Source: Serratia symbiotica (GTDB lineage: Bacteria; Pseudomonadota; Gammaproteobacteria; Enterobacterales; Enterobacteriaceae). Taken from it: a DNA stretch of 64,000 nucleotides. Shown in pieces: positions 8,276 through 57,579 of this stretch. Under the pieces are notes generated by a model that searched no databases, had not been told where the DNA came from, and was given only the letters and a program-made list of their open reading frames with translations. Every line of letters begins with the position of its first letter. Position 1 is the first letter of the stretch. The DNA lies in contig NZ_CP050855.1 of assembly GCF_000821185.2 (NCBI RefSeq), forward strand, positions 310,001-374,000, given 5' to 3'. A program made the translations under genes and the position numbers.

Positions 8276-10179
8276 CTATGTTCCGAAAGCCATCCCGTAC
8301 AGTTCCCGGCTTTCCGGAATGAGGCGACCTTCTTTCAGGTGTGCCTTTGCCGCTTCATTTCGGCTGAGTTTATCTGCCTTTTTTGCGCGTTCGTAGAAAT
8401 CTGCAGCCTGGTCAGGGTTAAGCTGACTGAACCTGTCGCCGGGCAATTTCAGCGACAGACGCGCCATGATGTCCTGACGTGAATTTTCATCGCTGCCGGC
8501 AACGTCAGACAGCAGGGCGCAAAGCTTCGTTGCGGCCTCAGAATTCCATGCTGCGCCGGCAATGGCATGAGCGAGGGATGCAACGCTGTGCTCCTTTTTA
8601 TGCGGCAGCAGCGCTGATATTACCTCCTCTTTGTCAAGGTATTTGTTTTCGTACAACCGGTGTAATAAAGAAACCCATGCCTCTGCAAGGGGAGCCATTC
8701 CGCCTGCTGCTACCCTGGTTGCCAGCAGGCTGCCGGGGTGGGCCTCGTTGACATTGCCGGGTCGGACTGCCATAGCCGCCACCGCAGGGGCAGAGGCGGC
8801 AACCGAAGTCAGTTCAGTCACGGCTTTCAGGGCCTGCTCCGGGCGCTTATCAGCCATCAGAGCACAGTACCGGTTTTGCAGGAACGCGCGGGTAAGGGCA
8901 GTCTCGTTCTCACCCGTCATTTCATCCCAGACTTTTTTGCCAACAGCCACTTCGGCATCAGCAATGCCCTCCACCCCAGCGGCCTTCAGTTCTGCATCCA
9001 CGCGCTGACGATAAGTGTCGTTTAAAGCCCCTGTCTGCTGCTCCTGCATGTTCTCGACAAATCCGGGGCTGGCCCGGTACAGCGCCGTTTTCCAGGGGGT
9101 CCACTGTGCCAGCCAGGTGGGAAACGCCCGTTTTTCCCGCTCTCTGACCTGTACCAGTGCCCGATCCAGGTCTTCCTGCGTCACGCCGGAGACGTCACCA
9201 TAGCGCATTCTTTCTCCCGCAGAGGTCAGCCTCAGTGCATCGCGCAGGCCGGTCTGGTATGCCAGGTAAACCTCAACTTCATCAACGAGCCGGAGCGTTT
9301 TAACCTTGTCACGGGCTGCCTGCTCAAGCTGTTCAAGGCGGAACATCTCGCATCCGGCAGTCATTAATTCCGGCAGTCTGTCATCCCAGGTACCGTTTTC
9401 AACGTCATACACCAGCGCCACTTTCTGCATATCGTTCCAGGCGAGTGTCACCCTGTCTTCGCAGCTTGTGGTGGCCTCCTGGGCCACGGCAAATGTTGTC
9501 TCCCGCAGCGCGGGGGTTTCCACCAGCCGGGTCAGCCAGTCAGTCACCCGCACCTTAAATGCCGGGTTTTCTCGCGTGTTTTGGGTTTCGCCCAGGCGGC
9601 TGAGGAACGCGCTGAAGGCCGCCGCGTTGTCCTCCTTTTCCATGGCTGCCCAGGCACTTTCTGCCGTCTGTGCTGACAGCCAGTCTCTCACCGCTTCACT
9701 CAGGGGACGAGGCGGGGCATCAGCCCTGTCTTCTGACATGGAGAAAAGGAACTGTGGCCCGGTATAATCTGCCATCTGAACCCAATCCATGAGTCTGCGG
9801 AGGGTGCGTGCTGAAAACGGATTACCGTCCAAAAAAACGCCAGCCTCCGATGGAAGACGCCAAAGGGAAGCAGGAATTGTTTGCAATTGATTATTTTGTA
9901 AAAATAAATACAGCAGGCTATCAGGTAGATGATCCGGCAGGGTTGATAATCTATTGTCAACTAAATCAAGCACCTCAATAGTATCGGGCAAATTACCGGG
10001 AATACTTTCCAACTGATTTTTCCCTAAAATTAATCTCTCAAGCCTGGGGGGGAGGTTTTCGGGAGTTTCTGTAAACTCGTTATCGGAAACAATAAGATCA
10101 GTCACTGTCTCAGGGAGGTTATCCGGTAATTTGCAGAGGTGGTTGCCACTAACGTTCAGTGATGTGATGTTGGGGTGTA
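8276..10179 (-). pseudogene. LRR-NEL E3 ubiquitin ligase effector, copy 2, 5'-truncated by IS911
   Basis: Nearly identical to copy 1 from the first LRR (NITSLNVSGNHLCKLP) onward, including NEL Cys-Glu-Asp and the helical extension. The secretion signal and pre-LRR region are missing: at 10180 the sequence changes to the end of the IS911-like element. A frame starting inside the IS (10228) would add a short foreign N-terminus without a type III signal. It ends at TAG 8276-8278, where copy 1 has CAA. Secretion, and hence effector function, is unlikely unless the IS supplies expression and the product has another role. Confidence 0.85.
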
Positions 10180-10251
10180 TGTAGTGGCACACTGAATTTG
10201 GCCACCTGAACAGAGGTGATATGCTCACCTCAGGACATTACAGGTGCTTCA

Positions 10252-11420
<1,169 letters not shown>

Positions 11421-12468: not shown

Positions 12469-13204
12469 TAATCAGAGGCTTATCATGCGCGTCCGGCACT
12501 TGATGGCGCTGGGTACCCGCAACGATAACCCGCATGAAGCGGCACGCGCCGTTGCGCTGGCTCAGCGCCTCATGCAGCGTCACAACCTTACTCAGGACAT
12601 GTTCTCCCTCACAGAGGTCAGCGAGTCGGTCTGCGATAGCCTGACCAGTAACGCGGAGAGGGTGCCGGCCTGGCTCAACTCCCTTGCAACTGTTGTCTGT
12701 ATGGCCACGGGTTGCCGTAGCTGGTTCGGTTGGTACGTCTATACCAGCATGGGTGGTAATAAAATCCATCGCCGTTCGTTGCACTTTTACGGCTTCAGTG
12801 AGCGGCCAGAAATCGCGCGTTACATCTTCACCGTGTTGCAGCGTCAGTTGCGGGTCGCAACTGACCGCCATATGAAAAGTTATCGCTCTCGCCGTATCCT
12901 TCTGCGCACGCTCCGCTGTCGGGCAGACCAGTTCCGTGAAGGCTGGGTATCGGGCGTCTGGCAGGTACTGCAGTCTTTTGCTCCCTCATCGGGGGAAACG
13001 TCGGTGCTGCAGCGCTGGTTGGTGCAGCGTCATAGGGGCAACGCCTTGACCGGCCTCACCATCCGTGAAGTCGGCAGTTGCCGCGGTGATAAAATGGCCC
13101 GTATGGTGGGCTGGCTCGCCGGGCGTGATGCCGATGTGCATCAAGGCCTTTACGGGGCACAGGCTCCACATCAGATCACGGAGGGAGGTACCGCGTATGA
13201 CTGA
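12461..13204 (+). CDS. DUF2786 protein of ICE replication module
   Basis: 247 residues. The N-terminal segment (RVRHLMALGTRNDNPHEAARAVALAQRLMQRHNL) is typical of DUF2786; the remainder is basic and rich in Arg, with SYRSRRILLRTLRCRADQFREGW. Function is unknown; it recurs between ParB and DUF2857 genes in this ICE family. The ATG at 12461 overlaps the preceding stop. I see no catalytic motif. Confidence 0.7.
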   Translation: MSDNQRLIMRVRHLMALGTRNDNPHEAARAVALAQRLMQRHNLTQDMFSLTEVSESVCDSLTSNAERVPAWLNSLATVVCMATGCRSWFGWYVYTSMGGNKIHRRSLHFYGFSERPEIARYIFTVLQRQLRVATDRHMKSYRSRRILLRTLRCRADQFREGWVSGVWQVLQSFAPSSGETSVLQRWLVQRHRGNALTGLTIREVGSCRGDKMARMVGWLAGRDADVHQGLYGAQAPHQITEGGTAYD

Positions 13205-14007: not shown

Positions 14008-15246
14008 ATGACCATGCCGCCCGATAGCATTGTGGCACTCACACTGTCCCGGATGCAGCAAAACCTGGAGCGGAGGGCGGATAGCTGCGATGTCAGCCAG
14101 GAGCGCAGCGGGCTGCTATTTATGGGGAACGTGCACGATGCGTATCCGCGCAGGCTGTTTCTCGACACGCGCCTTTCACCGCTCGATAAAACCGCGTGGG
14201 TAATGATCCGGCTTTATGCACAGCAGAATGAGGGGGCTGTCTTCCCGACCTACGATGAACTACAGATACAGCTCGCATCGGCGCATTCTGAGAAAGCCTC
14301 CAGGGATACCGTCAGCCGTGTTCTTCTGATGCTGCGTCTGACAGGCTGGCTCAGTTTGTGTAAGCGCGTGCGTGATGACCGCGGCCGCATACGTGGCAAT
14401 ATCTATGCACAGCATGATGAACCGTTGGGTTACCGGGATGCAGAGACGTTCGACCCGGGCTGGCTGACGCTGGTTGAAGAAAGCTGTTTGAGTAAGAATA
14501 AGTCTGTCCGTATGACGGCGTTAGCCGTGATAAATGACATGCTTCAGGATCCGGGTATGCGTCACCGCCACAGTCGGCTGGTACTCATTGAGAATCGGCT
14601 GAGTGTACCTGCTACACCTGCTGAAATGGTCCGTCGTAGCAGGGCGCAGTCAATGAGTCCAGAAAACGGACTTGGTAAAAAACGCTTAAAAAACCTCTTG
14701 AATCCACTAAGTCCGAAAAACGGACTTAGTACCCCACAGCACGAAGAAACACTGAGTTCGAAATCAGGACTCTGCAAGAAATCAATGAGTTACGCCGGAG
14801 TCCGAAAATCGGACTGTAACGTACGTAATTTCACACAAAGTGTGAATAAAAAAACGTACGTACTGGGCCGAGGACTTTCGTTGCTGCCTGAAGATTTCAT
14901 GACCGGACTGAACAGTGAGGATCGGCAGATGCTGGCTGACCAGATGGCCTCACTGCCCGAAACGACTGCGAAGATACTGGCTGGGATGCTGTGTGAACAA
15001 CTGAGACAGGGCAGGCTGTCCAATCCTGTTGGCTGGATGTTTTCGATGCTGCGACGAGCTCGCAATGGCAAATTAAAATTGTCAGAAGACGCTGGGCATG
15101 CAGACTCTGGCTGCATCGCATCTACCCCTGCAGAAAGCCCGCCCCCAGTGCCTGCAGTATCGCTTCCTGTTCTGCCTGCGAACAGAGCTTCTCAGGAGCA
15201 GGTCAGGACGATGATTGCTGCTATCCGGAAACAATCGTGTAAGTGA
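14008..15246 (+). CDS. STY4528-family ICE replication protein
   Basis: 412 residues. The N-terminal half (residues about 45-190) has the winged-helix look of plasmid/phage replication initiators: LSPLDKTAWVMIRLYAQQNEGAVFPTYDELQIQL, DTVSRVLLMLRLTGWLSLCKRVRD. The middle (about 210-290) carries repeated peptides SPENGL, SPKNGL and SSKSGL, encoded by palindromic DNA repeats (14650-14815). The C-terminus (residues about 370-410) is partly duplicated downstream (15325-15438). ATG at 14008 follows AGAGGGGAG. It likely initiates autonomous replication of the excised ICE, binding its own gene or the downstream repeat array. Confidence 0.75.
   Translation: MTMPPDSIVALTLSRMQQNLERRADSCDVSQERSGLLFMGNVHDAYPRRLFLDTRLSPLDKTAWVMIRLYAQQNEGAVFPTYDELQIQLASAHSEKASRDTVSRVLLMLRLTGWLSLCKRVRDDRGRIRGNIYAQHDEPLGYRDAETFDPGWLTLVEESCLSKNKSVRMTALAVINDMLQDPGMRHRHSRLVLIENRLSVPATPAEMVRRSRAQSMSPENGLGKKRLKNLLNPLSPKNGLSTPQHEETLSSKSGLCKKSMSYAGVRKSDCNVRNFTQSVNKKTYVLGRGLSLLPEDFMTGLNSEDRQMLADQMASLPETTAKILAGMLCEQLRQGRLSNPVGWMFSMLRRARNGKLKLSEDAGHADSGCIASTPAESPPPVPAVSLPVLPANRASQEQVRTMIAAIRKQSCK
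14650..14815. repeat. Four palindromic ~18-bp repeats inside the replication gene
   Basis: Imperfect inverted repeats of the form AGTCC-GAAAAA-CGGACT lie near 14656, 14708, 14755 and 14802, at spacings of about 46-54 bp. Copy 2 is flanked by extra complementary bases (ACTA/TAGT); copies 1 and 3 have mismatches. They are followed by a longer nested palindrome (14820-14866). Arrangement inside an initiator gene parallels lambdoid origins inside O. Confidence 0.7.
14820..14866. repeat. Nested palindrome inside the replication gene
   Basis: ACGTACGT-type arms at the outside (near 14820 and 14859) enclose TTCACAC-AAA-GTGTGAA (about 14829-14846) and an A-rich run. It directly follows the four short palindromes and could be part of an origin. 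Confidence 0.55.
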
Positions 15247-15437
15247 TAATTGTGATTGTACAAAAAACAACCTTTCCACCCAGTGGTGGCAAGAGCAAAA
15301 AACAACCAATCAGAGGAGATGTTACATCAGCCCCTACAGAAAGCCTTTACCTAGTGCCTGCGGTATCGCTTCCTGTTCTGCCAGCGAACAGATCTCCTCA
15401 GGAGCGCATGAAGGCGGTGATAGCGGCGATACGGCAT
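15247..15437 (+). pseudogene. Decayed duplicate of the replication gene 3' end
   Basis: 15325-15438 repeats 15113-15235: both encode a Pro/Ser-rich stretch with VSLPVLPANR followed by an AAIR helix. The first copy ends soon after the helix with a stop; the second continues to GAQQGLK and into the 98-bp array. The duplicated segment has no own start. Between the two lies a short AT-rich stretch without a gene. Confidence 0.6.
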
Positions 15438-16728
15438 GGGGCGCAACAAGGTTTGAAAATTAACAAACTGATTCGAGAATTAAGCAACAACGCCAACCTG
15501 AGACAGCAAGATTGCTCAAATAATAACCTTGTTGCGGGGCGCAACAAAATTAAAAAACGAGCAAACCGATTCGAGAATTAAGCAACAACGCCAACCTGAG
15601 ACAGCAAGATTGCTCAAATAATAACCTTGTTGCGGGGCGCAACAAGATTAAAAAACGAGCAAAACGATTCGAGAATTAAGCAACAACGCCAACCTGAGAC
15701 AGCAAGATTGCTCGAATAATAACCTTGTTGCGGGGCGCAACAAGATTAAAAAACGAGCAAACCGATTCGAGAATTAAGCAACAACGCCAACCTGAGACAG
15801 CAGGGTTGCACAAATAATAACCTTGTTGCGGGGCGCAACAAGATTAAAAAACGAGCAAACCGATTCGAGAATTAAGCAACAACGCCAACCTGAGACAGCA
15901 GGATTGCACAAATAATAACCTTGTTGCGGGGCGCAACAAAATTAAAAAACGAGCAAACCGATTCGAGAATTAAGCAACAACGCCAACCTGAGACAGCAAG
16001 ATTGCTCAAATAATAACCTTGTTGCGGGGCGCAACAAGATTAAAAAACGAGCAAACCGATTCGAGAATTAAGCAACAACGCCAACCTGAGACAGCAAGAT
16101 TGCTCGAATAATAACCTTGTTGCGGGGCGCAACAAGATTAAAAAACGAGCAAACCGATTCGAGAATTAAGCAACAACGCCAACCTGAGACAGCAGGGTTG
16201 CACAAATAATAACCTTGTTGCGGGGCGCAACAAGATTAAAAAACGAGCAAACCGATTCGAGAATTAAGCAACAACGCCAACCTGAGACAGCAGGATTGCA
16301 CAAATAATAACCTTGTTGCGGGGCGCAACAAGATTAAAAAACGAGCAAACCGATTCGAGAATTAAGCAACAACGCCAACCTGAGGCAGCAAGATTGCTCA
16401 AATAATAACCTTGTTGCGGGGCGCAACAAGATTAAAAAACGAGCAACCTGATTAGAGAATTAAGCAACAATGGCAACCTGAGACAGCAAGATTGCTCAAA
16501 TAATAACCTTGTTGCGGGGCGCAACAAGATTAAAAAACGAGCAAACCGATTCGAGAATTAAGCAACAATGGCAACCTGAGACAACAGAATTGCTCAAATA
16601 ACAACCTTGTTGCGGGGCGCGGCAAGGTTAAAAAACGAGCAAACCGATTCGAGAATTAAGCAACAATGGCAACCTGAAACAACAAGATTGCCCAAATAAT
16701 AACCTTGCTGCGGGGTGCGGCAAGGTCA
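15438..16728. repeat. Tandem array of thirteen 98-bp repeats, each with a hairpin
   Basis: The word AACCTT recurs at 15525, 15623, 15721, 15819, 15917, 16015, 16113, 16211, 16309, 16407, 16505, 16603 and 16701, always 98 bp apart. Each unit contains TTGTTGC-GGGGC-GCAACAA, a perfect 7-bp stem with 5-nt loop, plus a further GCAACAA and two runs of A. Four variant units occur in the same order twice (from 15623 and from 16015), showing a 392-bp duplication. In the last two units both stem arms changed so that pairing is kept. Units carry stop codons, so the array is non-coding. It sits directly after the replication gene: origin, partition or transfer site are candidates. Confidence 0.95.
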
Positions 16729-16839
16729 GAATACGTACATGTGATAATTTCAGCGTTGAGATTATGAGTTTTACATTGTTGTAAACCCTGATATTTCAGG
16801 ACTATGCCACCTCATCTTAACTGAACACAGGTGACAACG
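16729..16839. other. Leader region between repeat array and TIGR03761 gene
   Basis: About 110 bases of AT-rich sequence with a TACATTGTTGTAA-like short palindrome (near 16772). It probably holds the promoter of the next operon; no clear -35/-10 pair was picked. Confidence 0.35.
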
Positions 16840-17559
16840 ATGGCAGACAAGAAAACCAGGGCGGGTGCACTCCAGTCCGAACTTCATATCGAACTCCACA
16901 CTAATTATGCCATTGGATTGTGGGAGGGTCGTAAGGCAGAGAAACGTGATGACGGTAAGAAAGGAAAGCAGCCTATTATGGGCATGCCGCAGTTTCTTCA
17001 CCGTGCCACGCTGATTAACAGAGATTCTTTGCAGAATGATCCGTGGGCCGATATGGCGATGCTGGCCCTGGAAGAAAAAATTGAGTACGCCAGCCAGCAG
17101 ATGCAAAAGCTGATTGAAACACTGGATAAACAGATGAGCTTTGTTCCGGCAGGCGTCACCATCAGCGATGCTCAAGCTGTGGAAACAGTCGACCTCACTG
17201 TTTTTAGCAGCACCCCACTGGGATATCGCTGTGTTTTTCTGCTGATGGGCTTTGATCAGTTTGCTAAAAAGGTTCTCCAGGCCGCGCATTATGGCGTTAT
17301 TTCACGCACTCAGCGCTATGATCTGCTGGGCGACGGCAGCCGACTTCTACGTGAAATTTACGGATGCGTGCTTCGTTATCGCAAAATCGGCGCAACCCGC
17401 CTTGATGCGGTTGAGAATAATGAGGTGTGGAATAAAGCCTGCGAAGAAGCTGGCGAACCTGATCGTACCGTTCTGCTCGGAGAAAAACGTTCCACGTTCT
17501 CTCCGCCCGTTAATGAAGCGAGCATAAATCTTCTGCGCTTGCGCTATCAGGCGACCTGA
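16840..17559 (+). CDS. TIGR03761-type ICE protein
   Basis: 239 residues, no signal peptide or membrane segment. GALQSELHIELHTNYAIGLWEGRKAE at the N-terminus and LMGFDQFAKKVLQAAHYGVISRTQRYDLL in the middle are like the PFGI-1-class proteins encoded just before topB in this ICE family. Function unknown; position suggests a DNA replication or processing role. The ATG at 16840 is preferred over the GTG at 16831 because AGGTG sits at the right distance. It ends 11 bases before topB, so the two are probably co-transcribed. Confidence 0.75.
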   Translation: MADKKTRAGALQSELHIELHTNYAIGLWEGRKAEKRDDGKKGKQPIMGMPQFLHRATLINRDSLQNDPWADMAMLALEEKIEYASQQMQKLIETLDKQMSFVPAGVTISDAQAVETVDLTVFSSTPLGYRCVFLLMGFDQFAKKVLQAAHYGVISRTQRYDLLGDGSRLLREIYGCVLRYRKIGATRLDAVENNEVWNKACEEAGEPDRTVLLGEKRSTFSPPVNEASINLLRLRYQAT

Positions 17560-17570
17560 GGAGACCGACC

Positions 17571-19583
17571 ATGCGGCTTTTTATCTGTGAAAAGCCCTCG
17601 CAGGGGCGCGATCTGGCGGCAGTGCTTGGGGCATCCCGCCGCAGTGACGGTTTTATGGCGGGTAGCGGCGTCACCATCACCTGGGCGGTGGGTCACCTGC
17701 TTGAGACTGCACCGCCAGAAGCTTATGGCCAGCAGTACGGCAGACCCTGGTCGCTCTCTGCCCTGCCGATACTGCCCGCACCCTGGCAGGTCATTGTGAA
17801 AAAAGAAACGCAGGATCAGTTTAAGGTAATCGAGCGGCTGCTACGCCAGGTTGATGAGGTGGTGATCGCAACCGACGCTGACCGTGAGGGTGAGGTCATT
17901 GCGCGCGAGCTACTCGATTACTGCCGCTGGGAAGGTCCGGTGCAGCGGCTCTGGCTCTCGGCGCTGGATGAACTCAGTATCCGTGCTGCATTGCAGGATC
18001 TTCGTCCGGGCGCAGATACACTCGGCATGTACCACGCCGGGTTGGGACGTGCGCGCGCAGACTGGTTGATAGGTATGAACCTCTCTCGCCTCTATACCCT
18101 GCGCGCGGCTGAAGTCGGTTTTGACGGTGTGGTGTCGGTCGGGCGCGTGCAAACTCCGACACTGGCACTGGTTGTGCGACGTGACAGGGAGATTGCGGCC
18201 TTTGTGCCTAAGCCTTACTGGCAGGTAAAGGCGCAGCTCACTGCGGGTGGTCTCACGTTCCCGGCGCAGTGGGTACCGGCGAAGGTTTATACCGATGAGG
18301 AAAAGCGCTGCGTGCATCAGAACATCGCGCAGCAGGTGGCGCAGCTTTGCCAACAGGCTGGCGTCGCAGTAGTGACGGAGTGCGAGACAAAACGGGAGAA
18401 GGCCGCCGCGCCGCTAGCCTTTTCTCTCGGCTCCCTGCAGCAGGCCTGTGGCAGGCTTTGGGACATGTCGCCCCAGCAGGTGCTGGATACAGCGCAAAGC
18501 CTGTATGAAAAACACAAGGCTACTACCTACCCCCGCACCGACTGCGGCTACCTGCCGGAGTCCATGCGTAAGGAAATTCCCAGTGTGCTGGACGCTATTG
18601 GCCGCACTGATCCAGAGTGTGCCCCACTGTTGTCCCAACTCGATAAGACGATGGTCTCACGCATATGGAACGACAAAAAAATCACTGCCCATCATGGTAT
18701 TATCCCCACGCGTAACGCATTCCAACTGTCCGCACTAAACGAGGTTGAGTGCCGGGTGTATACACTGATCCGCCGCAACTATCTGGCACAGTTCCTGTCG
18801 CTGCACGAGTCAGATATTACCCGGCTGCAATTTGACATCGGCGGCCAGTTGTTTCGCACCCTTGGTCGAACGGAGATGATAAAAGGCTGGAAGGTATTAT
18901 TTGAAAAGGCCGATGAGGACGAGGTGCCGGCAGAGGATGAGGCAGCAGTGGCACTGCCTCCGCTCAGTAGAGATGCGCGCTGTGGGGTAAGTCGTGCAGA
19001 GGTGGTACCACTGATGACCCGCCCGCCGGCGCATTACACCTTTGCCACCCTTATCGGTGCCATGATGAACGCTGCGGCATTTGTTACTGACGTTTCGCTG
19101 CGCAAGGTGCTGAAAGACAACGCTGGACTGGGCACCGAAGCCACCCGTGCCGGTATTGTCGAGCAACTGCTAAACCGCCGCTTTATCGCGCGTAAAGGCA
19201 GCAAGCTGATGGCTACGGATCTCGGCGCTGACGTCATTGATGCTCTGCCACCCCAGTTGACGGAGCCGGGAATGACGGCGCTGTGGGAACAGGCGCTGGA
19301 TGAGGTCGCCGCAGGTCGCATGACGCTCAGCGCCTTTTTGCAACGGCAGGCGGGCTGGACGCGCAACTTGGTAAGCCAGGGTGCGCAGCAGCAGGTTCAC
19401 ATCCGCGTACCACCCACGCCGCCTTGTCCGTTGTGCGGCGGGAAAACCCGTCTGCGTAAGGGGGACAAAGGCGAGTTCTGGAGTTGTCAGCACTACCCTG
19501 AATGTAAGGGGATCATTAACAGTGATACCAGGAAGCGAAAAAGCCCGCGCCGGGCTAAGTCACCAAAATCCAACAAGAATTAA
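17571..19583 (+). CDS. topB: DNA topoisomerase III (type IA)
   Basis: 670 residues. The N-terminal Toprim domain has EKPSQGRDLAAVLG and the metal-binding TDADREGEV (101-109). The active-site tyrosine is Tyr320 in TTYPRTDCGY. VGRVQTPTLALVV (about 190-202) and the TRAGIVEQLLNRRFI block complete the type IA core. A C-terminal zinc ribbon (about 617-645, CPLCGG...CQHYPEC) and a basic tail follow. It passes and decatenates single DNA strands, probably to resolve ICE replication intermediates. ATG at 17571 with GAGGAG upstream. Complete, no anomalies. Confidence 0.95.
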   Translation: MRLFICEKPSQGRDLAAVLGASRRSDGFMAGSGVTITWAVGHLLETAPPEAYGQQYGRPWSLSALPILPAPWQVIVKKETQDQFKVIERLLRQVDEVVIATDADREGEVIARELLDYCRWEGPVQRLWLSALDELSIRAALQDLRPGADTLGMYHAGLGRARADWLIGMNLSRLYTLRAAEVGFDGVVSVGRVQTPTLALVVRRDREIAAFVPKPYWQVKAQLTAGGLTFPAQWVPAKVYTDEEKRCVHQNIAQQVAQLCQQAGVAVVTECETKREKAAAPLAFSLGSLQQACGRLWDMSPQQVLDTAQSLYEKHKATTYPRTDCGYLPESMRKEIPSVLDAIGRTDPECAPLLSQLDKTMVSRIWNDKKITAHHGIIPTRNAFQLSALNEVECRVYTLIRRNYLAQFLSLHESDITRLQFDIGGQLFRTLGRTEMIKGWKVLFEKADEDEVPAEDEAAVALPPLSRDARCGVSRAEVVPLMTRPPAHYTFATLIGAMMNAAAFVTDVSLRKVLKDNAGLGTEATRAGIVEQLLNRRFIARKGSKLMATDLGADVIDALPPQLTEPGMTALWEQALDEVAAGRMTLSAFLQRQAGWTRNLVSQGAQQQVHIRVPPTPPCPLCGGKTRLRKGDKGEFWSCQHYPECKGIINSDTRKRKSPRRAKSPKSNKN

Positions 19584-19643
19584 TCCATCGTCTCTGTATT
19601 GCAGGCCAGTGTGGCCTTTGCTATTGTTAACCCGGCTCTGAAG

Positions 19644-19876
19644 CCGCACTCCGTGACTGCGGGTTTCGTCAGCATCTAATGCATGTGCTGGCGGGATACA
19701 GTCTGATCGGTCCGTCCACACCTGAACGGGAGCCGGTAAGGCACGAAAACTCCGTGAAACCCGTGCCGGGAATTGAACACGCCAGCGGAGCTACTGCAGC
19801 ATTAAGCAGCTAAACCTCAGGTCGATGGTGCAGACCTCAGAAGGCGGTGCCGTCAGGTACCGCTTTTTTTATTTTT
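19644..19876 (+). ncRNA. Candidate structured RNA: chain of hairpins ending in a strong terminator
   Basis: No gene fits here. Successive stems are CCGCA/TGCGG (19644/19658), GTCAGCA/TGCTGGC (about 19668/19686), CCGT/ACGG (about 19712/19726), GGCACG/CGTGCC (19740/19762), CTGC/GCAG (19795/19806) and AGGTC/GACCT (19819/19833). The end is GCGGTGCC-GTCA-GGTACCGC at 19844-19863 followed by a T-rich tract to 19876. It may be a small RNA, a topB 3' UTR or an attenuator. It does not match a tRNA or a riboswitch I know. Confidence 0.5.
19844..19876 (+). terminator. Strong rho-independent terminator
   Basis: An 8-bp GC-rich stem with a GTCA tetraloop (one G-T pair) is followed by TTTTTTTATTTTT. It closes the topB transcript or the candidate structured RNA. 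Confidence 0.85.
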
Positions 19877-20226
19877 CACGACTGATGATTTTCTGCGCGC
19901 AGCAGCGTTGACATATGCTGTGTCTGAATCAATGATAAAGAGGCTTATCGTTGTCATCACGACAACTGCCAATGTTCCAGTGATTTGAGAGGAGCGCCTT
20001 CGGGTAATCACATGCCAATGCCATCACAACCTGAGAGATGGCGCTTTCGGGCGGTTCAAACCTGTTAACCTTTGCGAACAGGGGCCTGATAATCAGGTTA
20101 AGGTCCACTTCACCAATACAGCCAGTCGGCGCTTACTGCTGACTTCCCTGCGGGAAACACTTCCCGTACGGGACAGATGTTTCTCCGCTACCTGTTTATG
20201 TTCAGTTTTACTCCGGAGAAAACATC
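19877..20226. promoter_or_regulatory. Long leader of the STY4534-type gene with several hairpins
   Basis: Non-coding. Stems seen include CCTGTT/AACAGG near 20062-20083, CCTGAT/ATCAGG near 20087-20099, TTCCC/GGGAA near 20143-20157, and TCCC-GTAC-GGGA near 20161. Two similar GCGCYTTCGGG elements occur near 19995 and 20041. This much structure before an abundant-type DNA-binding protein suggests translational or antitermination control; no known riboswitch was recognised. Confidence 0.4.
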
Positions 20227-20721
20227 ATGACTGCAAACACTCATACTGCCCCTGCTTCAAACGGCTCTTCTTCTGGCACTCAGAAAAAAGAGTATTTCAA
20301 CCTCAACGTTAGCGGTATCGGTTATCTCAATTCGATCCGCCGTGTTCAGGGTCCTAACGGTGAGTTCACCTGCGCTGTTATCAACGCTCTGACAGGACCA
20401 ACGGACAATGCTTCCTATACCCGTTTCGATGTCACCATCGCGGGTTCGGACACAACCAAGCTCATCAACCGCTGTCAGAAAGCGGTTGATGAAGAGGAGA
20501 AAGTCCTGATTGGCTTTGTGCTGAGCGGTCTGAAAGCCGACGTTTTTACCCTTCAAACGGGTGAACACGCCGGTGAAGCCCGAACCTCTCTGAAAGCCCG
20601 CCTGATTAAGGTGGACTTTATCAAGAAAGGCCAGGACGTGGTATACCAAGCACCCAATGCTTCTCAGACGCCGGAATCTGGTTCATCTGCTGCTAAAGAG
20701 TACGATCCGAACTCCTTCTAA
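20227..20721 (+). CDS. STY4534-family ICE protein (DUF3577)
   Basis: 164 residues. The core FNLNVSGIGYLNSIRRVQG...FTCAVINALTGPTDNASYTRFDVTIAG resembles DUF3577 proteins placed between topB and ssb in SPI-7-type ICEs. The strand-rich pattern and position next to ssb suggest a single-strand DNA-binding or recombination accessory role, which is inference. N-terminal 20 residues are Thr/Ser-rich and the tail (EYDPNSF) is acidic. ATG at 20227 follows CCGGAGAAAA. Confidence 0.75.
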   Translation: MTANTHTAPASNGSSSGTQKKEYFNLNVSGIGYLNSIRRVQGPNGEFTCAVINALTGPTDNASYTRFDVTIAGSDTTKLINRCQKAVDEEEKVLIGFVLSGLKADVFTLQTGEHAGEARTSLKARLIKVDFIKKGQDVVYQAPNASQTPESGSSAAKEYDPNSF

Positions 20722-20798
20722 GCGTCACGGACACACCACCGGAATACATCCCGGTGGTTGTGCTCCTCTCAACCCCCTATTTTTAAGAGGAAATCATT

Positions 20799-21296
20799 AT
20801 GTCCGCACGCGGCGTCAACAAAGTCATCCTCGTCGGTAACCTCGGCCAGGATCCAGAAGTACGTTACATGCCTAACGGTAATGCAGTGACCGGTTTAAGC
20901 CTGGCCACCTCGGAATCCTGGCGTGATAAACAGAGCGGTGAAAACCGTGAGAATACCGAATGGCATCGTGTCGTGCTGTTTGGCAAGCTGGCAGAAGTGG
21001 CCGGTGAATACCTGCGTAAAGGTTCACAGGTCTATATTGAAGGCCAGTTGCGCACCCGCAAATGGACGGATAACAGCGGCACTGACCGCTGGACGACGGA
21101 AGTGGTGGTGGGTATAAACGGAACGATGCAGATGTTGGGTGGTCGCAATACCAGCACCACTACCAGCGGAAACAAAGTGCAGTCAGGTCAGCAGAGCAGT
21201 TGGGGCCAGCCACAGCAACCTCAGCAAGCACAGTCTGCACCACGAAATCCGGCGAATGAGCCTCCAATGGATTTTGACGATGACATACCTTTCTAG
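20799..21296 (+). CDS. ssb: Single-stranded DNA-binding protein
   Basis: 165 residues. The OB fold (about 1-110) begins [23 protein letters not shown] and includes [29 protein letters not shown] Gln/Ser/Pro-rich linker follows, and the C-terminal tip DFDDDIPF is the docking peptide for replication and repair proteins. It protects single strands during ICE transfer and replication. ATG at 20799 with AAGAGG upstream. Its last ~70 bases recur in decayed form at 24253-24327. Confidence 0.95.
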
Positions 21297-34281: not shown

Positions 34282-34925
34282 TGACGCTGCTGACGCTGAG
34301 TATGCCGTGGCCCTATCTGGTGGTCATTTATCCGCTTTGCCTGCTCGCCTTTCATGTGATGGCACAGCAGGTTCGCGCTACGCTTGTGACGTTTGCGTCG
34401 TGGAATGACTGCATCACAGCCGTGATCATCTGGCTGTATGCCGCCGCGGCAACAGGCATGATAATGGCACCGGTGCCTGCCGTAGAACGTTTGATCCCCC
34501 TGCTGCTCAGCCTGTTTCTGTTTCGTATGACGCTCACTGACGCCCTGACGGGATTTCTGCCACGTGAAATGACAGTGAGCTGCCTGCTGGCAGGCATGAT
34601 AGCGGCTCTCGGCGTGCCAGGGTTTTGGGAGCACTCATTGTCTTCAGCCTCTGCACTGTTGATATTCGGCGGTTGGCGTTTTGTGGCCTCAAAACTGTCC
34701 GGTCAGGAGGCCATCGGACTGGGAGATATGTGGTTGGCTGGCGGCATCTGTGCCTGGCTTGGTGGCCTGGGACTGTATGCGCTGCTTACCGGCGTAGTGC
34801 TTTTTGTACTGTGGCAGTTGTCAGTGCGCCGTACTACCGAGGGTGGACCGATGGGACCCTGGCTTTGTGCCGGTGCACTTGTCTTGACTCTGTTTACGCT
34901 TTATCAGCCCCTGATAACATGGTGA
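34278..34925 (+). CDS. pilU: PilU, prepilin peptidase
   Basis: 215 residues, mostly membrane. The two catalytic aspartates are visible in LTDALTGFLPREM and GLGDMWLAGG. It lacks the N-terminal cysteine-rich methylase domain of larger PilD enzymes, as usual for R64-type PilU. It cleaves PilS, probably PilV, at the G-W junction. Overlaps neighbours at both ends. Confidence 0.88.
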   Translation: MMTLLTLSMPWPYLVVIYPLCLLAFHVMAQQVRATLVTFASWNDCITAVIIWLYAAAATGMIMAPVPAVERLIPLLLSLFLFRMTLTDALTGFLPREMTVSCLLAGMIAALGVPGFWEHSLSSASALLIFGGWRFVASKLSGQEAIGLGDMWLAGGICAWLGGLGLYALLTGVVLFVLWQLSVRRTTEGGPMGPWLCAGALVLTLFTLYQPLITW

Positions 34926-34930
34926 CTCTG

Positions 34931-36307
34931 ATGGCCGCACACAAAAATACTGACCGGGGCTGGGCCATACTCAGCACCGGTGCCGCGTTAATTATCCTGC
35001 TGCTGGTCAGCGTCTGGGGATATTCGCTGGTGAATGACTGGCTGGCAAAACGCACCTGGATGACCACTGCTGCACAGGTCTCGCGCTACACCCAGGCGGT
35101 GAAAAGCTACACGGGACGCTACTACGACACGCTGCTCAGCAGCGCCACCGTAACGGCACCGGTCACGGTGACTCCTGCGATGCTGAAAAACACTGGCTTC
35201 CTGGAGCAGGGCTTCAGCGAGACCACCTTCAGCGGTCAGAGCTACCGTGCGGCTATTGTGCGCAACGCCACGAATGCCGACCAGCTACAGGCGCTGGTCT
35301 ATACCCAGGATGGCGCGGCGTTGCCGTTCCTGGCGCTGCGTCAGATATCGATGGATATCACCACAGGGATGGGCGGCTATATCTGGATCTCAGGCATTGC
35401 CACGGGGGCCATGAGCAGTTGGACCGTGCCGCTGGCGAGCTTTGGTGCCAACGCCACACAGGGGCATATTGCGGCACTGTTGACCAGTGACGAGCTGGGC
35501 GCAGCGCGTGGCGAGAATGACCGTCTCTATCGCTTCTCAGTGACGGGTAAGCCAGACCTGAACACCATGCATACCAGCATCGATATGGGCGGTAACAACC
35601 TGAATAACACCGGCACAGTTAATGCCGTGACCGGCGCGTTTGGCAATGCGATCACAGCTAACAACGATATTCGTTCAAATAACGGGTGGTTTATTACGCG
35701 TGGCGAAAAGGGTTGGATCAATGAGACCTACGGAGGCGGATTTTACATGTCGGATAATGATTGGGTCAGGGTACTCAACAACAAGAATATTTATACCGCA
35801 GGACAGGTGCGTGGCGACAGCATTCGCGCGGACGGGCGTTTGTCTACGGGAGATGTTCTTCAGCTTGATGGCGTCAACACAGTCGATGCAGGGTGTTCAC
35901 CCAATGGATTGGTGAGTCGCGATGCGGCTGGTGCCATACTTTCCTGTCAATCCGGTGTGTGGAGTGGTGCAAAAAGCAATGGGCGTTACATTGGCTTAGG
36001 TACTTACACGTTACAATATAATGGCTTCAACTCAAGCAACGCCACCATTACTGTGTATGCTTTGGGTGGTAACTCAATCGTCAATAAAGATCTGGGTCAT
36101 GGTGATGGTTGTAGTAACACGTGGGCGCTATCTGGTAATGCGGGTGGAGTGACTGTGGCCAATGCGGCAGATAATAACCCATCATGGTACAAACCTGGAA
36201 CAATTTCATTCCAAGTTCCAGCCAATACAAGTTACTCAATTACTTCTAACCCTTTACCCAGTGAGGGATGTTCTCCAGGCAGGTTCACTGCTTATACATA
36301 TCAGTAG
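34931..36307 (+). CDS. pilV: PilV, minor pilin/tip adhesin with fixed C-terminus
   Basis: 458 residues. The prepilin-like N-terminus (TDRG, then WAILSTGAALIILLLVSVWG) has Ser at mature position 5 instead of Glu. A long constant part follows, with GGNNLNNTGTVNA. The constant region ends in the motif GLVSRDAAGAILSCQSGVW, the place where R64-type shufflons switch; a matching DNA site is at 35944-35962. The last ~115 residues are more AT-rich and form the receptor-binding tip. No rci recombinase is nearby, so the tip is probably locked. The ATG at 34919 is an alternative start. Confidence 0.85.
   Translation: MAAHKNTDRGWAILSTGAALIILLLVSVWGYSLVNDWLAKRTWMTTAAQVSRYTQAVKSYTGRYYDTLLSSATVTAPVTVTPAMLKNTGFLEQGFSETTFSGQSYRAAIVRNATNADQLQALVYTQDGAALPFLALRQISMDITTGMGGYIWISGIATGAMSSWTVPLASFGANATQGHIAALLTSDELGAARGENDRLYRFSVTGKPDLNTMHTSIDMGGNNLNNTGTVNAVTGAFGNAITANNDIRSNNGWFITRGEKGWINETYGGGFYMSDNDWVRVLNNKNIYTAGQVRGDSIRADGRLSTGDVLQLDGVNTVDAGCSPNGLVSRDAAGAILSCQSGVWSGAKSNGRYIGLGTYTLQYNGFNSSNATITVYALGGNSIVNKDLGHGDGCSNTWALSGNAGGVTVANAADNNPSWYKPGTISFQVPANTSYSITSNPLPSEGCSPGRFTAYTYQ
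35944..35962 (+). repeat. sfx-like shufflon recombination site in pilV
   Basis: CTGTCAATCCGGTGTGTGG agrees, as I recall it, with the R64 sfx consensus GTGCCAATCCGGTNNNTGG at all but two defined positions. It lies exactly at the boundary between the constant and variable parts of PilV. No second, inverted copy was found. Confidence 0.55.
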
Positions 36308-36552: not shown

Positions 36553-36615
36553 ATTGAGCATTGAGCATTGAGCATTGAGCATTGAGCATTGAGCATTGAG
36601 CATTGAGCATTGAGC
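36553..36615. repeat. Heptanucleotide tandem repeat, 9 copies of ATTGAGC
   Basis: Nine uninterrupted 7-bp units. Because 7 is not a multiple of 3, gain or loss of a unit shifts any frame read through it. On the minus strand it reads as repeated LNAQCSM leading into the fragment 36308-36552. Such tracts slip during replication and often mark phase-variable surface genes. Confidence 0.92.
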
Positions 36616-36645
36616 ATGTAAGCTGTTGCTGCTCTGCATCCCCTT

Positions 36646-38628
36646 TCAGGGATGAACTTCCCTAAAGGGGTTACCTTTCAGTTGAAGGTACTGTTCACCA
36701 AAAACGTGAGCCGCATAGTCATTGAGATGCCCCACATCCCGGAAAACAGATATGCCGTTAACCTCGGTCATACAGTGGTTATCGGCGCACTGTACATCTT
36801 TTATATCGATAACGATCAAAGACGGATAATCTTTTTTCAGTGCAGTAAACTCTTCGTCAAACCATGAACGCGGCGGAACCGCAACACTCGGGACATTACA
36901 GGAACCATCCTGGTAACTTTCCCTGTGTATAATCTTTTCCTTCATGCATGACTCATATCCGGTGGGTCTAGTAAATATCTCTTTCATGACCACAGGAACA
37001 GCGCCTGATTTAGTTATGATGTTGAACGCGTCCCGAAGGGCGATATCCAGTCGGGTTTTCGCCAGTTCAGGGCTTCGGGCGTCAGAGGGATGATTAATAA
37101 TTTTATCACTGACGTACATGGGCCATAATTCTCCGATGATGACGTAATTGAAATGCTCGGAGGCTATTTTACGGTAATACTCATTCGTATTTATATGACA
37201 CTGGCTGTAAACAGTGTTGTGGTGTATCCACCAGTCATATTGGTAGAGGCCGGGCAGCGTCAGGCATGTTGCCGTACTGCGCGCGGTCACGGCCAGTCCA
37301 GCATCCCGCGCAAGAACGTTCAGGAACATCCAGTAATGATTTGAATTGGAGTCGCCGATAAAAAATGCTTTGCTGGTAGGATGAGATGAGCCGAATGTGC
37401 AATGCTCGTCTGAGTATTTACCCTCAGCATCATCGGTCAGGCAGTCCGGCCGGTTACCCGCCAACTGCTTGTATTCATTCTGCATGTGAACTGCATGCGC
37501 GAATGTGCTACCAAAACGCCACGGATAGAATTCAAATTTTTTGCCTGCCTCGTAAATTCCGGTTGCTATTAACAGTGGAAGCACGATGAGCAGTCCTGAG
37601 GTGATCCATAAGCTTGTCTGTGTTTTCCTCAAGGGCATTTCAATTAGACTGTACGAAGCACACGCCAGCAGAAGTGACGCGCAAAGCACTGTGGTGAGGG
37701 CTATTGTGTTACTGAACATGTTCAGGTAGTGCAGAGTAGCCAGACCTGGCCAGTGCCAGAGGTAAAGCGAGTACGAACGCTTGCCAATGCCTGTTAAAAC
37801 GCGGTTAGAAAGTAAATGTGACATCAGGGTTTGTTTGTGTTCTCCGGATATAATAAGAGCACCGGAGGCCAGAACGATAATGATCGTATACCCATTGGGA
37901 TACCCGGCAATCACATCGGTTTTGATTGCCAGCGCGATAATACCTAACAGCGATACAACGCTAGCTACATGAGCCCCTTTCTTGCTTATTTTGAGCCTGC
38001 CAAACGCGAGGCAGCTTCCTATCTGCAACTCAAAACATCTGGAGAGGAAGTCATAGTACCTGTCGGTATGTGATGTTAATGACAGATATATTGTCATAAA
38101 GGTGAGAAGCAGTGTTGCAGCACAGCAGGCCAGAAATGTGTTATTTCTTCCCACGTACTTTAATGCGAGATGCATGATTAGCGGAAAGCACAAGTACCAC
38201 TGCCATTCCACAGAGAGAGACCACGTGTGAAGCAATATGAGATAATTTGCATCTTCTGATGCATAACTGGTTGTTACATCTGAGAAATATTTGTTTGAGG
38301 TAAAAAATAGGAGATTTTTGACGCTGTGAAGAAATGTGTTGAAATCATCGGACAGGTAAAAAATGCCGCTAATAATCAATGATAAAAGTACGATTACAAG
38401 AAGGGAAGGCTGTAAGCGCCATATACGGCGATTATAAAAGTCACTAATACTGAACTTTCCTGATTCGAAATTTCCGAGAACTATTCTGGTTATTAAATAA
38501 CCGGATATCACGAAGAAGACATCTACACCAATAAATCCTGAGGCGATGGTGCTACATCCTGCATGAAAAAGTATTACCAGGGTAACGGCTACGGCGCGTA
38601 GTCCGTCAATATCACTACGGTACTTCAT
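36646..38628 (-). CDS. OafA-type O-acyltransferase with SGNH domain
   Basis: 660 residues. The N-terminal acyltransferase-3 domain (about 1-370) begins YRSDIDGLRAVAVTLVILFHAG and has about ten membrane segments, with GVDVFFVISGYLI. The C-terminal periplasmic SGNH hydrolase-like domain (about 410-655) has FFIGDSNSNHYW and a late DVGHLNDYAAHVF carrying the Asp-x-x-His pair. Such proteins acetylate O-antigen or other surface glycans. Minus strand, opposite to the surrounding pil and transfer genes, so it is cargo. ATG at 38628. Confidence 0.9.
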   Translation of the reverse strand: MKYRSDIDGLRAVAVTLVILFHAGCSTIASGFIGVDVFFVISGYLITRIVLGNFESGKFSISDFYNRRIWRLQPSLLVIVLLSLIISGIFYLSDDFNTFLHSVKNLLFFTSNKYFSDVTTSYASEDANYLILLHTWSLSVEWQWYLCFPLIMHLALKYVGRNNTFLACCAATLLLTFMTIYLSLTSHTDRYYDFLSRCFELQIGSCLAFGRLKISKKGAHVASVVSLLGIIALAIKTDVIAGYPNGYTIIIVLASGALIISGEHKQTLMSHLLSNRVLTGIGKRSYSLYLWHWPGLATLHYLNMFSNTIALTTVLCASLLLACASYSLIEMPLRKTQTSLWITSGLLIVLPLLIATGIYEAGKKFEFYPWRFGSTFAHAVHMQNEYKQLAGNRPDCLTDDAEGKYSDEHCTFGSSHPTSKAFFIGDSNSNHYWMFLNVLARDAGLAVTARSTATCLTLPGLYQYDWWIHHNTVYSQCHINTNEYYRKIASEHFNYVIIGELWPMYVSDKIINHPSDARSPELAKTRLDIALRDAFNIITKSGAVPVVMKEIFTRPTGYESCMKEKIIHRESYQDGSCNVPSVAVPPRSWFDEEFTALKKDYPSLIVIDIKDVQCADNHCMTEVNGISVFRDVGHLNDYAAHVFGEQYLQLKGNPFREVHP

Positions 38629-56212: not shown

Positions 56213-57579
56213 TACGCAACCTTTTTCTGAGCAGATACAGCATGGTACGACTCAGAAAGGACAGGTTCAAAAATGAATCTGGCAAGATGACGGACCACCG
56301 GCACAACGACACCATCGCCAGCGATATGATAGGCATCATTATAATTATGAGGAAGCTTGTAAGTATCGGGTAGCCCCATCAGGCGAGCGGCTTCTCTTGG
56401 GGATAGGAGACGTGAACTTATCTTATCGCCTTCAACGACCAGGATACTTTGACGGCTGGAACCCCCTGCCGGGGTACGCAAACACCCCGCAATGCCATCG
56501 AATCGGACCTCTGCCCGCTGGACTTTTTCGCCGTTATCATTCATCCGGGTACGCTTGTAGAGTCCTCCGACAATACGTTTTCCAGATTTCTGGGCTGACT
56601 GAACTTTAAGAAGGTTAACAGGGGTCATCATTGCCAGTAATTGCCTGGTTTTTTCTGCGCTGTCCCATTTTACACCCTCTGGATTCTCATCAATGATGTC
56701 ACTAAACGTCGTCAATCGCTCTTCAGGTAGAGGTAAATTCCACCATAGCCATGATTGCTGCGCTTTTTTTGACAGCCCATTAAAAGCGGTGACCATTCGT
56801 TCTGGATGCCACTGACTGATAGGAGTCGGGGAAATGAGATGCTGAGGTACTTTTGCTGAAGGGTGTACGGCCACAATAAAAACACGGGAACGCGATTGCG
56901 GCACGAAGTGCTGGGCATCTATGACCATTGCACCAAAACGGTAGCCTGCATCGGATAGAACGGCCCCGATAGAGGTAAAATCCTTCCCTTTATTTGACGT
57001 CATGATGCCATAGACATTTTCGAGCACGATAATCTGAGGGGCTCGCCTTTCATCCATAAGATTCCGCATAAGTCGCCAGAATGGCCAGAATGTACCAGAA
57101 CGGGTCTGATTATGGTCATCTTCGCTGCCGATCCCTTTATAAACGCCAGCCAAAGACAGATCCTGGCAAGGGAAGGATGCCCATACCAGGTCTGCCTGTG
57201 CGGGGAGTTGTGCGCTAGTGATGTTATTTATATCTTCGACCAGCAAATCTGTGCCACCGCTCCAATTACTCCTGTAAGCATGGCCTTTCATTGGGCTGAA
57301 ATCGTTAGCAAAAAGGCAATCCCACTGAGCACCCAATCCGGCGCGGGCCATCCCGCCACCGGCAAAAAACTCATAAAAACACCGCTCTGACTGCCTGGTG
57401 TATTTCAGGTGGGTATTTGCACGCTCAATGTCACGCTGAATTCTTTCGTTGATTGCCTGAGCAATCCACGCGCTCATAGTGATTTTTCCACCATCAAGCT
57501 GACACAGTCGGGAGATGCTGTTGTATTGTGTATTTGTTAGGCGGAGACTGGTACGATAACTTGCTAAGGCGCTCATCAT
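56212..57579 (-). CDS. DNA (cytosine-5) methyltransferase with N-terminal ribbon-helix-helix
   Basis: 455 residues. From about 68: motif I FFAGGGMARAGLG, motif IV FPCQDLSLAG with catalytic Cys138, motif VI ENVYG, motif VIII QSRSRVF, and late motif IX/X AARLMGLPDTY and DGVVVPVV. Residues 8-50 (RTSLRLT strand, then two helices to NERIQRD) look like an RHH DNA-binding domain, not part of the standard enzyme. It would protect host DNA from the DUF4928 nuclease and perhaps repress its own promoter, which overlaps GCCAAA-type boxes (57597-57667). Confidence 0.9.
   Translation of the reverse strand: MMSALASYRTSLRLTNTQYNSISRLCQLDGGKITMSAWIAQAINERIQRDIERANTHLKYTRQSERCFYEFFAGGGMARAGLGAQWDCLFANDFSPMKGHAYRSNWSGGTDLLVEDINNITSAQLPAQADLVWASFPCQDLSLAGVYKGIGSEDDHNQTRSGTFWPFWRLMRNLMDERRAPQIIVLENVYGIMTSNKGKDFTSIGAVLSDAGYRFGAMVIDAQHFVPQSRSRVFIVAVHPSAKVPQHLISPTPISQWHPERMVTAFNGLSKKAQQSWLWWNLPLPEERLTTFSDIIDENPEGVKWDSAEKTRQLLAMMTPVNLLKVQSAQKSGKRIVGGLYKRTRMNDNGEKVQRAEVRFDGIAGCLRTPAGGSSRQSILVVEGDKISSRLLSPREAARLMGLPDTYKLPHNYNDAYHIAGDGVVVPVVRHLARFIFEPVLSESYHAVSAQKKVA

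Follow-up and report, generated by a model that had tools for sequence, protein, structure and literature searches.

The 64-kb stretch of DNA analysed here (the window) comes from Serratia symbiotica, an aphid-symbiont bacterium, and it raises the question of what a long array of 98-bp repeats, each with a hairpin, does between the STY4528 and PFL_4669 genes of an ICE. We give a probability of roughly 60% to the reading that the array is a tandemly amplified palindrome element, called P below, and that P is an accessory part of the replication origin region of ICEs of the pKLC102/SPI-7 class. This class carries varied cargo across the Proteobacteria, yet its origin is still termed putative or postulated in the papers cited here. 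The features of the locus are as follows.

14008..15246, plus strand: gene for a STY4528-family replication protein of 412 aa (NF040582, 394 bits against a cut-off of 130)
14655..14846, no strand: in-gene palindromes, clean at 14706-14730, 14799-14815 and 14830-14846, degenerate at 14655-14675 and 14754-14772 (by eye)
15262..15307, no strand: degenerate first hairpin with an A-tract box on each side, just past the STY4528 stop (by eye; missed by the one-mismatch scan)
15315..15437, plus strand: second, diverged STY4528 3' tail (residues 368-407, 62.5% identical), which enters the array
15438..16725, no strand: hairpin array, 13.0 units of 98 bp with 13 full hairpins, the last ending at about 16725
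15536-15927 and 15928-16319, no strand: four-unit block (units 2-5) and its tandem duplicate (units 6-9), 1 difference in 392 bases
16831..17559, plus strand: PFL_4669-family gene (TIGR03761, 246 bits), product matching Pfam AcaB (PF08900, 229 bits; transcriptional regulator)
17571..21296, plus strand: replication-module genes, namely topB (17571-19583), a STY4534-family gene (20227-20721) and the single-stranded DNA-binding protein (SSB) gene (20799-21296)

The initial annotation had placed the array beside an ICE replication gene, and the NF040582 match agrees with this. Type IV pilus, TraD and TraC-type conjugation genes lie further downstream of the SSB gene, and together with the replication module they assign the locus to an ICE of the SPI-7/pKLC102 class. 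It was noted that the leader before PFL_4669 (16740-16833; TTTCAGGACTATGCC...CTTAACTGA...CAGGTGACAACGATG) is strongly conserved in the closer relatives, as judged by eye. Elsewhere in the window, a perfect 7-bp tandem repeat (ATTGAGC x 9.3, 36553-36617), possibly a length-variable tract, occupies the gap between an ORF at 34625-36307 and a minus-strand acyltransferase-like gene at 36646-38628. Two further ORFs (79-1902 and 8276-10228), near an IS3-family transposase gene (10581-11420), gave partial matches to profiles of IpaH/SlrP-type secreted E3 ligases.

Architecture of the array

Tandem Repeats Finder reported one tandem array at 15438-16715 with 13.0 copies, a period of 98 bp, 95% matches and 0% indels, and the unit-to-unit distance was constant along its whole length, as first described. 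The four-unit block that had been said to repeat in order does so, units 2-5 and 6-9 being identical at 98, 97, 98 and 98 of 98 bases. Block duplication has produced the 13-copy size at least in part, and the units at the edges are the most divergent in the array, which is the pattern expected from unequal exchange. The 13-copy size itself is probably not essential, because the locus of a sister S. symbiotica contains approximately one unit. The array also looks non-coding, in line with the initial annotation; one mechanically called ORF (15243-15581) starts in the duplicated tail of the gene and covers one and a half units of the array.

We found seven matches to the 98-bp unit in the 3.55-Mb genome of the strain, all of them inside the array. 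The unit is not common elsewhere in the host chromosome, where its presence would have counted against the initial annotation, and a chromosomal repeat family is ruled out for this genome. Neither a megablast search with the array against E. coli genomes nor a distant plasmid search with the 98-bp unit returned a match. Searched at E up to 1, the Rfam covariance models did not match anything in 15438-16715, and one sub-threshold match was recorded inside the STY4528 gene (14886-14941).

The array starts with a right half-hairpin, and the 13 full hairpins have their centres at 15538 + 98k (15538 to 16714). The stem that had been read as a perfect TTGTTGC-GGGGC-GCAACAA in every unit is present, with the correction that the palindrome is TTGTTGCG-GGG-CGCAACAA, with 8-bp arms and a GGG centre, and that it is perfect in 11 of the 13. 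As single-stranded DNA, one hairpin was predicted to fold at -9.4 kcal/mol and was far stabler than its shuffles (z = -5.17). A-boxes and palindrome form triads of 36 bp, and successive triads are set apart by 62 bp.

Both arms had been thought to change together in the last two units, and selection on the hairpin had been argued from this. The last hairpin does have both arms altered, which leaves two G.T pairs and a single pair that is truly compensatory, whereas in the penultimate hairpin the right arm alone is altered, giving two G.T pairs. Covariation within the array comes to one compensatory cell and four one-sided G.T cells, and 753 of 5000 shuffles paired equally well (not significant), so that the earlier argument was overstated. 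Reading the hairpin as a structure is supported by the comparison with relatives given below and not by the window alone.

Hairpins of this kind could also be intrinsic transcription terminators, and a pattern scan found nine terminator-like minus-strand sites in the array compared to 3.2 (sd 1.8) in shuffles. However, all of these sites are on the minus strand while both flanking genes are on the plus strand, and many relatives have no T run directly after the hairpin; we regard termination as very improbable.

The STY4528 gene and its junction with the array

The product of the STY4528 gene was modelled with AlphaFold2 at a mean pLDDT of 66, the model being usable for about residues 46-200 and 293-355 only; an earlier model was poorer (pLDDT 52) and had no useful fold match. 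The predicted layout consists of a winged-helix domain at about residues 46-141, a disordered stretch at 215-290 and a small helical domain at about 293-355. For the modelled N-terminal domain, the best structural alignment was to plasmid initiators, by a small margin over unrelated winged helices. A family match to RepA_N was absent from Pfam scans of the protein at E up to 0.1 and over 29 members at E up to 1, and a profile search of solved structures returned weak repeat-protein matches, none of them significant to RepA_N. The highest identity among the STY4528 protein matches listed was 95%, from Serratia symbiotica.

A second set of palindromes was found inside the gene itself. The window has three clean examples in nt 600-880 of the gene, among them TTCACAC-AAA-GTGTGAA at 14830-14846, and the cluster overlies the predicted disordered residues 215-290. 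Among 38 STY4528 genes, a set that leaves out the truncated or broken genes of loci L037, L050 and L057, 37 had at least one palindrome with a 3-nt centre at gene nt 600-880. Judging from sequence, these in-gene palindromes are probably the initiator's own binding sites. The repeats of the array had been called iterons, and as sites bound by the initiator the in-gene palindromes may fit that term better than the 98-bp array does. In one relative (L071), palindromes of the type found after the stop (GTGATGGC-AGT-GCCATCAC) were also observed in the coding tail of STY4528, 66-207 bp before the stop.

The tail of STY4528 is present twice in the window, at 15109-15228 (residues 368-407) and, with a 62.5% match, at 15315-15434. 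In the sister S. symbiotica locus (L057) there is one tail, which by eye leads directly into about one 98-bp unit, and the flank is nearly identical. In the window, two versions seem to have been joined at this boundary, so that an intact gene end with its own degenerate hairpin is followed by a second tail with the array. The duplicated tail suggests recombination between two versions of the ICE.

The palindrome element in related ICEs

The STY4528 family was matched in 29 of 369 genomes of the class, the genome of the window included, with 16 above the family cut-off. We compared 41 loci, comprising 35 from the STY4528 scan, the window and five plasmid-borne elements; the plasmid-borne set represents 5 of 33 plasmid records with a STY4528 match, and E. 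coli was represented by 1 of 146 records. These loci are not independent, as L039 and L044 share a genome, as do L053 and L056, and many are close relatives; the three loci with truncated or broken genes were kept in the palindrome counts. pKLC102, ICEHin1056 and an E. coli island have hairpin repeats at the matching position, and so do many other elements. The tandem repeats that follow STY4528 in many relatives differ in sequence and have periods of 36, 57, 97, 105-108, 158 and 250 bp. Most of the Enterobacterales loci, and ICEHin1056 as well, have an A-rich box on one or both sides of the palindrome, at about 18 bp from its centre, with the result that the 36-bp arrays alternate box and palindrome.

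The interval from the STY4528 stop up to PFL_4669, or up to 1.7 kb, was scanned for palindromes with arms of at least 7 and a centre of 1 or 3 nt. Such odd-centred palindromes numbered 99 in 34.1 kb after STY4528 compared to 81 in 404 kb elsewhere in the 41 loci, and the other centre lengths from 0 to 8 showed no excess (20 in total after STY4528, 277 elsewhere). A strict P was located within 150 bp past the stop in 33 of the 41 loci, compared to 52 of 2663 background windows (2%); with one mismatch in eight allowed, the counts were 36 of 41 and 241 of 2663. The eight loci with no strict P within 150 bp were the window, L030, L035, L037, L039, L050, L057 and L064. Among these, L037 and L050 have truncated STY4528 genes and L057 a broken one, and the window falls outside both the strict and the one-mismatch counts because its first hairpin is degenerate. 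Thirteen further P-like matches in 11 relatives look unrelated (judged by eye), and within the 64-kb window the scan found no further palindrome of this type flanked on both sides by A- or T-runs. L031 has a second array of hairpins at 12842-13104, 5.6 kb downstream of STY4528 (85 bp x 3.1, palindrome TTGCTGCC-ACT-GGCAGCAA).

The distant set consisted of 19 of 30 loci, leaving out the window's own locus (L069) and ten weak matches (L086-L095; E of 6.8e-7 or worse), and two of its members (L075 and L076) are alike. A palindrome with a 3-nt centre was present within 60 bp past the stop in 14 of the 19, compared to 12 of 253 background windows (5%). The centre was AGT or ACT in 12 of these 14, and the arms were widely different. 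L082 and L084 have an even-centred palindrome instead, and L070, L078 and L083 had no palindrome within 60 bp past the stop.

P was found to follow the STY4528 gene, as it stays at the end of this gene when cargo separates the two neighbours. Eight loci have more than 1 kb between STY4528 and PFL_4669 with no array filling the gap, a set that leaves out the window and pKLC102, where the array itself fills it. In all eight, P lies within 50 bp of the STY4528 stop; it is also within 400 bp of PFL_4669 in three (L029, L044 and L056) and solely there in none. Five further loci lacking PFL_4669 on the contig (L031, L048, L051, L055 and L059) likewise have P within 50 bp past the stop, and it was absent from that interval in L037 and L050, which have truncated STY4528 genes. 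As a separate observation, palindromes flank inserted sequence in L029, L044 and L056 (between the genes) and in L055 (after STY4528); cargo seems to enter the array itself, which may be an insertion hot spot.

This placement bears on two other functions. Because PFL_4669 belongs to the AcaB family by Pfam (the 229-bit match), we had to weigh whether P is an operator for its protein or for another ICE regulator, acting on the downstream operon. In IncC plasmids, AcaB is described as activating transcription (PMC10954446, PMC11493245), and the array is directly upstream of PFL_4669 in most loci. Against an operator, P is at the STY4528 end in all eight separated loci and five of them have no strict P within 400 bp of PFL_4669, so that we hold this role to be decidedly unlikely.

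A centromere is a second candidate, since tandem palindromes suit one, and sopC of plasmid F is a tandem inverted-repeat centromere. The array would then be a parS-like site bound by a ParB of the ICE and moved by ParA. In pKLC102, ICEHin1056 and the elements from Citrobacter, Pantoea and Erwinia billingiae, a gene of the ParB family is found a few genes upstream, and putative partition systems are reported for this ICE group (PMC4489591). However, P tracks the STY4528 stop codon rather than parB, its sites can be as few as one, and the arms vary within one array with pairing kept, which in our judgement is unusual for a single sequence-specific protein. We therefore consider a centromere unlikely.

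Conserved pairing in relatives

Pairing between the arms was counted by array register and compared with 5000 shuffles. In pKLC102, 126 of 128 cells were paired, with 12 compensatory and 2 one-sided changes, and none of the 5000 shuffles did as well. ICEHin1056 had 32 of 40 cells paired (5 compensatory, 3 one-sided; 6/5000 shuffles), and the E. coli island 59 of 72 (4 compensatory, 4 one-sided; 11/5000 shuffles with nine units and 44/5000 with eight). Among the 12 arrays tested, L060, L061 and L036 were at or below 6/5000, L034 and L042 were at about 4%, and seven were uninformative. The centre was movable by up to 3 nt to maximise pairing in L025, L036, L042 and L054, which is a bias towards pairing, and one unit of L036 and two of L034 were misplaced in the count; for these reasons we place the weight on L060, L061 and L106. 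Arm sequences vary between elements, and in some arrays between units, and complementarity is mostly kept.

The conserved pairing is likely to be under selection. If it is, pairing that persists despite sequence drift would favour a hairpin in the DNA over a binding site read as duplex. Compensation can also be yielded when template switching corrects imperfect palindromes, so that selection is not proven. The array could be a functionless by-product, with slippage multiplying the repeats and template switching keeping the arms perfect. The contrast between 13 units in the window and about one in the sister S. symbiotica, the block duplication with its most divergent units at the edges, and the occurrence of centres in both strands' versions within one array (e.g., AGT and ACT) agree with such an origin. 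The palindrome nevertheless recurs at the matching place in most of the 41 loci and in the 14 distant ones, despite differing sequence. A by-product may well explain the copy number and explains the element itself less well; as a full account we find it quite unlikely.

A candidate part of the replication origin

The initial annotation had listed an origin, an incompatibility or copy-control element and a transfer origin as candidates. An origin or maintenance element remains the best reading, given the hairpin repeats at the matching position in relatives and the published putative oriV of PFGI-1 at this spot (PMC2647930). A putative oriV was likewise placed here in the ICEHin1056 family, where it was named from iteron-like repeats (PMC2258188), and pKLC102 is described with up to 30 copies and a postulated oriV (PMC7685784). 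ICEs of the pKLC102 group are reported to replicate (PMC4489591). As counter-evidence, the amplification of ICEclc, a relative within the class, is described as depending on TraI and oriT1 (PMC6561031). The literature searched yielded no report of a functional test of this region.

In a circular 72-kb Citrobacter element, this module is the sole candidate replicon listed, with no other initiator gene or known replicon type in a gene table that is incomplete; an excised circle need not replicate. The Pantoea plasmid offers no clean replicon evidence, since it carries another replication initiation gene, and its GC skew is too flat to read. Along pKLC102 the GC skew declines steadily and does not turn at the array, which counts against the origin reading. 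For ICEHin1056, the raw minimum is at 2.6 kb, the maximum at 43.8 kb and the detrended minimum at 20.0 kb, with the array at 6.0 kb and no clear origin.

Repeats and hairpins are common at origins of transfer, and the array had been put forward as one. The oriT of ICEclc is reported to drive replication as well (PMC6561031). The distance to the relaxase gene makes an oriT extremely improbable here: the MobH relaxase gene is at 99,964-101,883 in pKLC102 with the array at 14.5-15.4 kb, and at 55.5-57.4 kb in ICEHin1056 with the array at about 6.0 kb. In the Citrobacter element, a TraI-domain gene ends at 57,132 and P follows about 8 kb on, at about 65.4 kb, past int, parA, dnaB and parB.

As an accessory part of a replication origin region, P could act as follows. 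STY4528 would be the Rep, its winged helix binding the palindromes within its own gene and opening the DNA for the helicase, SSB and topoisomerase of the ICE. A short way downstream, the P palindromes would be accessory sites, probably working by hairpin formation, since their arms drift while pairing is mostly kept; this pairing is seen in relatives, and we infer its cause. P might recruit a primosome or primase, or might be bound as duplex in the control of copy number and incompatibility. A more specific plan would resemble that of RepA_N replicons, with STY4528 as the Rep, boxes inside its gene and, after the stop, P (13 copies here) as a single-stranded hairpin that recruits the priming machinery and whose arms are free to drift if paired; this version is tentative and, on balance, doubtful. 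The comparison reduces the origin question to two sets of palindromes and one protein.

Comparison with known systems

The array of pKLC102 (L060, Pseudomonas aeruginosa) is close in form. Like the window, it has a long array between STY4528 and PFL_4669 (57 bp x 15.2), one palindrome with a 3-nt centre per unit, and palindromes inside the STY4528 gene (at nt 681, 725, 779 and 823). The 2004 paper on pKLC102 reportedly counted 16 repeats. The initial annotation had known of no arrays of this size in the ICE class, and pKLC102 has one. It differs from the window in unit length and sequence, is G+C-rich and has no A-tract boxes, and its arms vary with compensation inside the array, whereas those of the window hardly do so.

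PFGI-1 of Pseudomonas fluorescens Pf-5 is known here from its published description (PMC2647930), in which the putative oriV lies immediately upstream of PFL_4669, as the array does in the window. It comprises four 23-bp palindromes and four 46-bp direct repeats, each with an inverted repeat, compared to thirteen repeats in the window (PMC2647930). The palindrome set inside the STY4528 gene of the window corresponds to the "first half" feature of PFGI-1, and that element is stated to encode no Rep protein (PMC2647930). The period of 98 bp also differs from the approximately 20 bp of classical iterons (PMC2647930). Because the array is at the position of the pKLC102 repeats and of the PFGI-1 putative oriV, it is a further and large example of a known feature, which the literature cited calls a putative or postulated origin. 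ICEHin1056 (Haemophilus influenzae) shares A-tracts and palindromes with 3-nt centres after STY4528 (36 bp x 4.6), in a short alternation of A-box and palindrome without the extra 62-bp spacer of the window unit.

The RepA_N replicons, such as staphylococcal pSK41, are described with a winged-helix N-terminal domain and a separate C-terminal domain (PMC5703833), a layout to which the predicted domains of STY4528 may correspond. Their binding boxes are in the middle of the rep gene, over the linker (PMC5703833), and the in-gene palindromes of STY4528 are a candidate counterpart. Unlike these proteins, which come from Firmicute plasmids, STY4528 belongs to Gram-negative ICEs and has no significant Pfam or PDB sequence match to them; the predicted resemblance is structural only, with a small lead over unrelated winged helices. 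Downstream of the pAMbeta1 origin, the primosome assembly site ssiA is described as an accessory site (PMC5703833), and by analogy with that description P would match the role of ssiA if it acts as single-stranded DNA.
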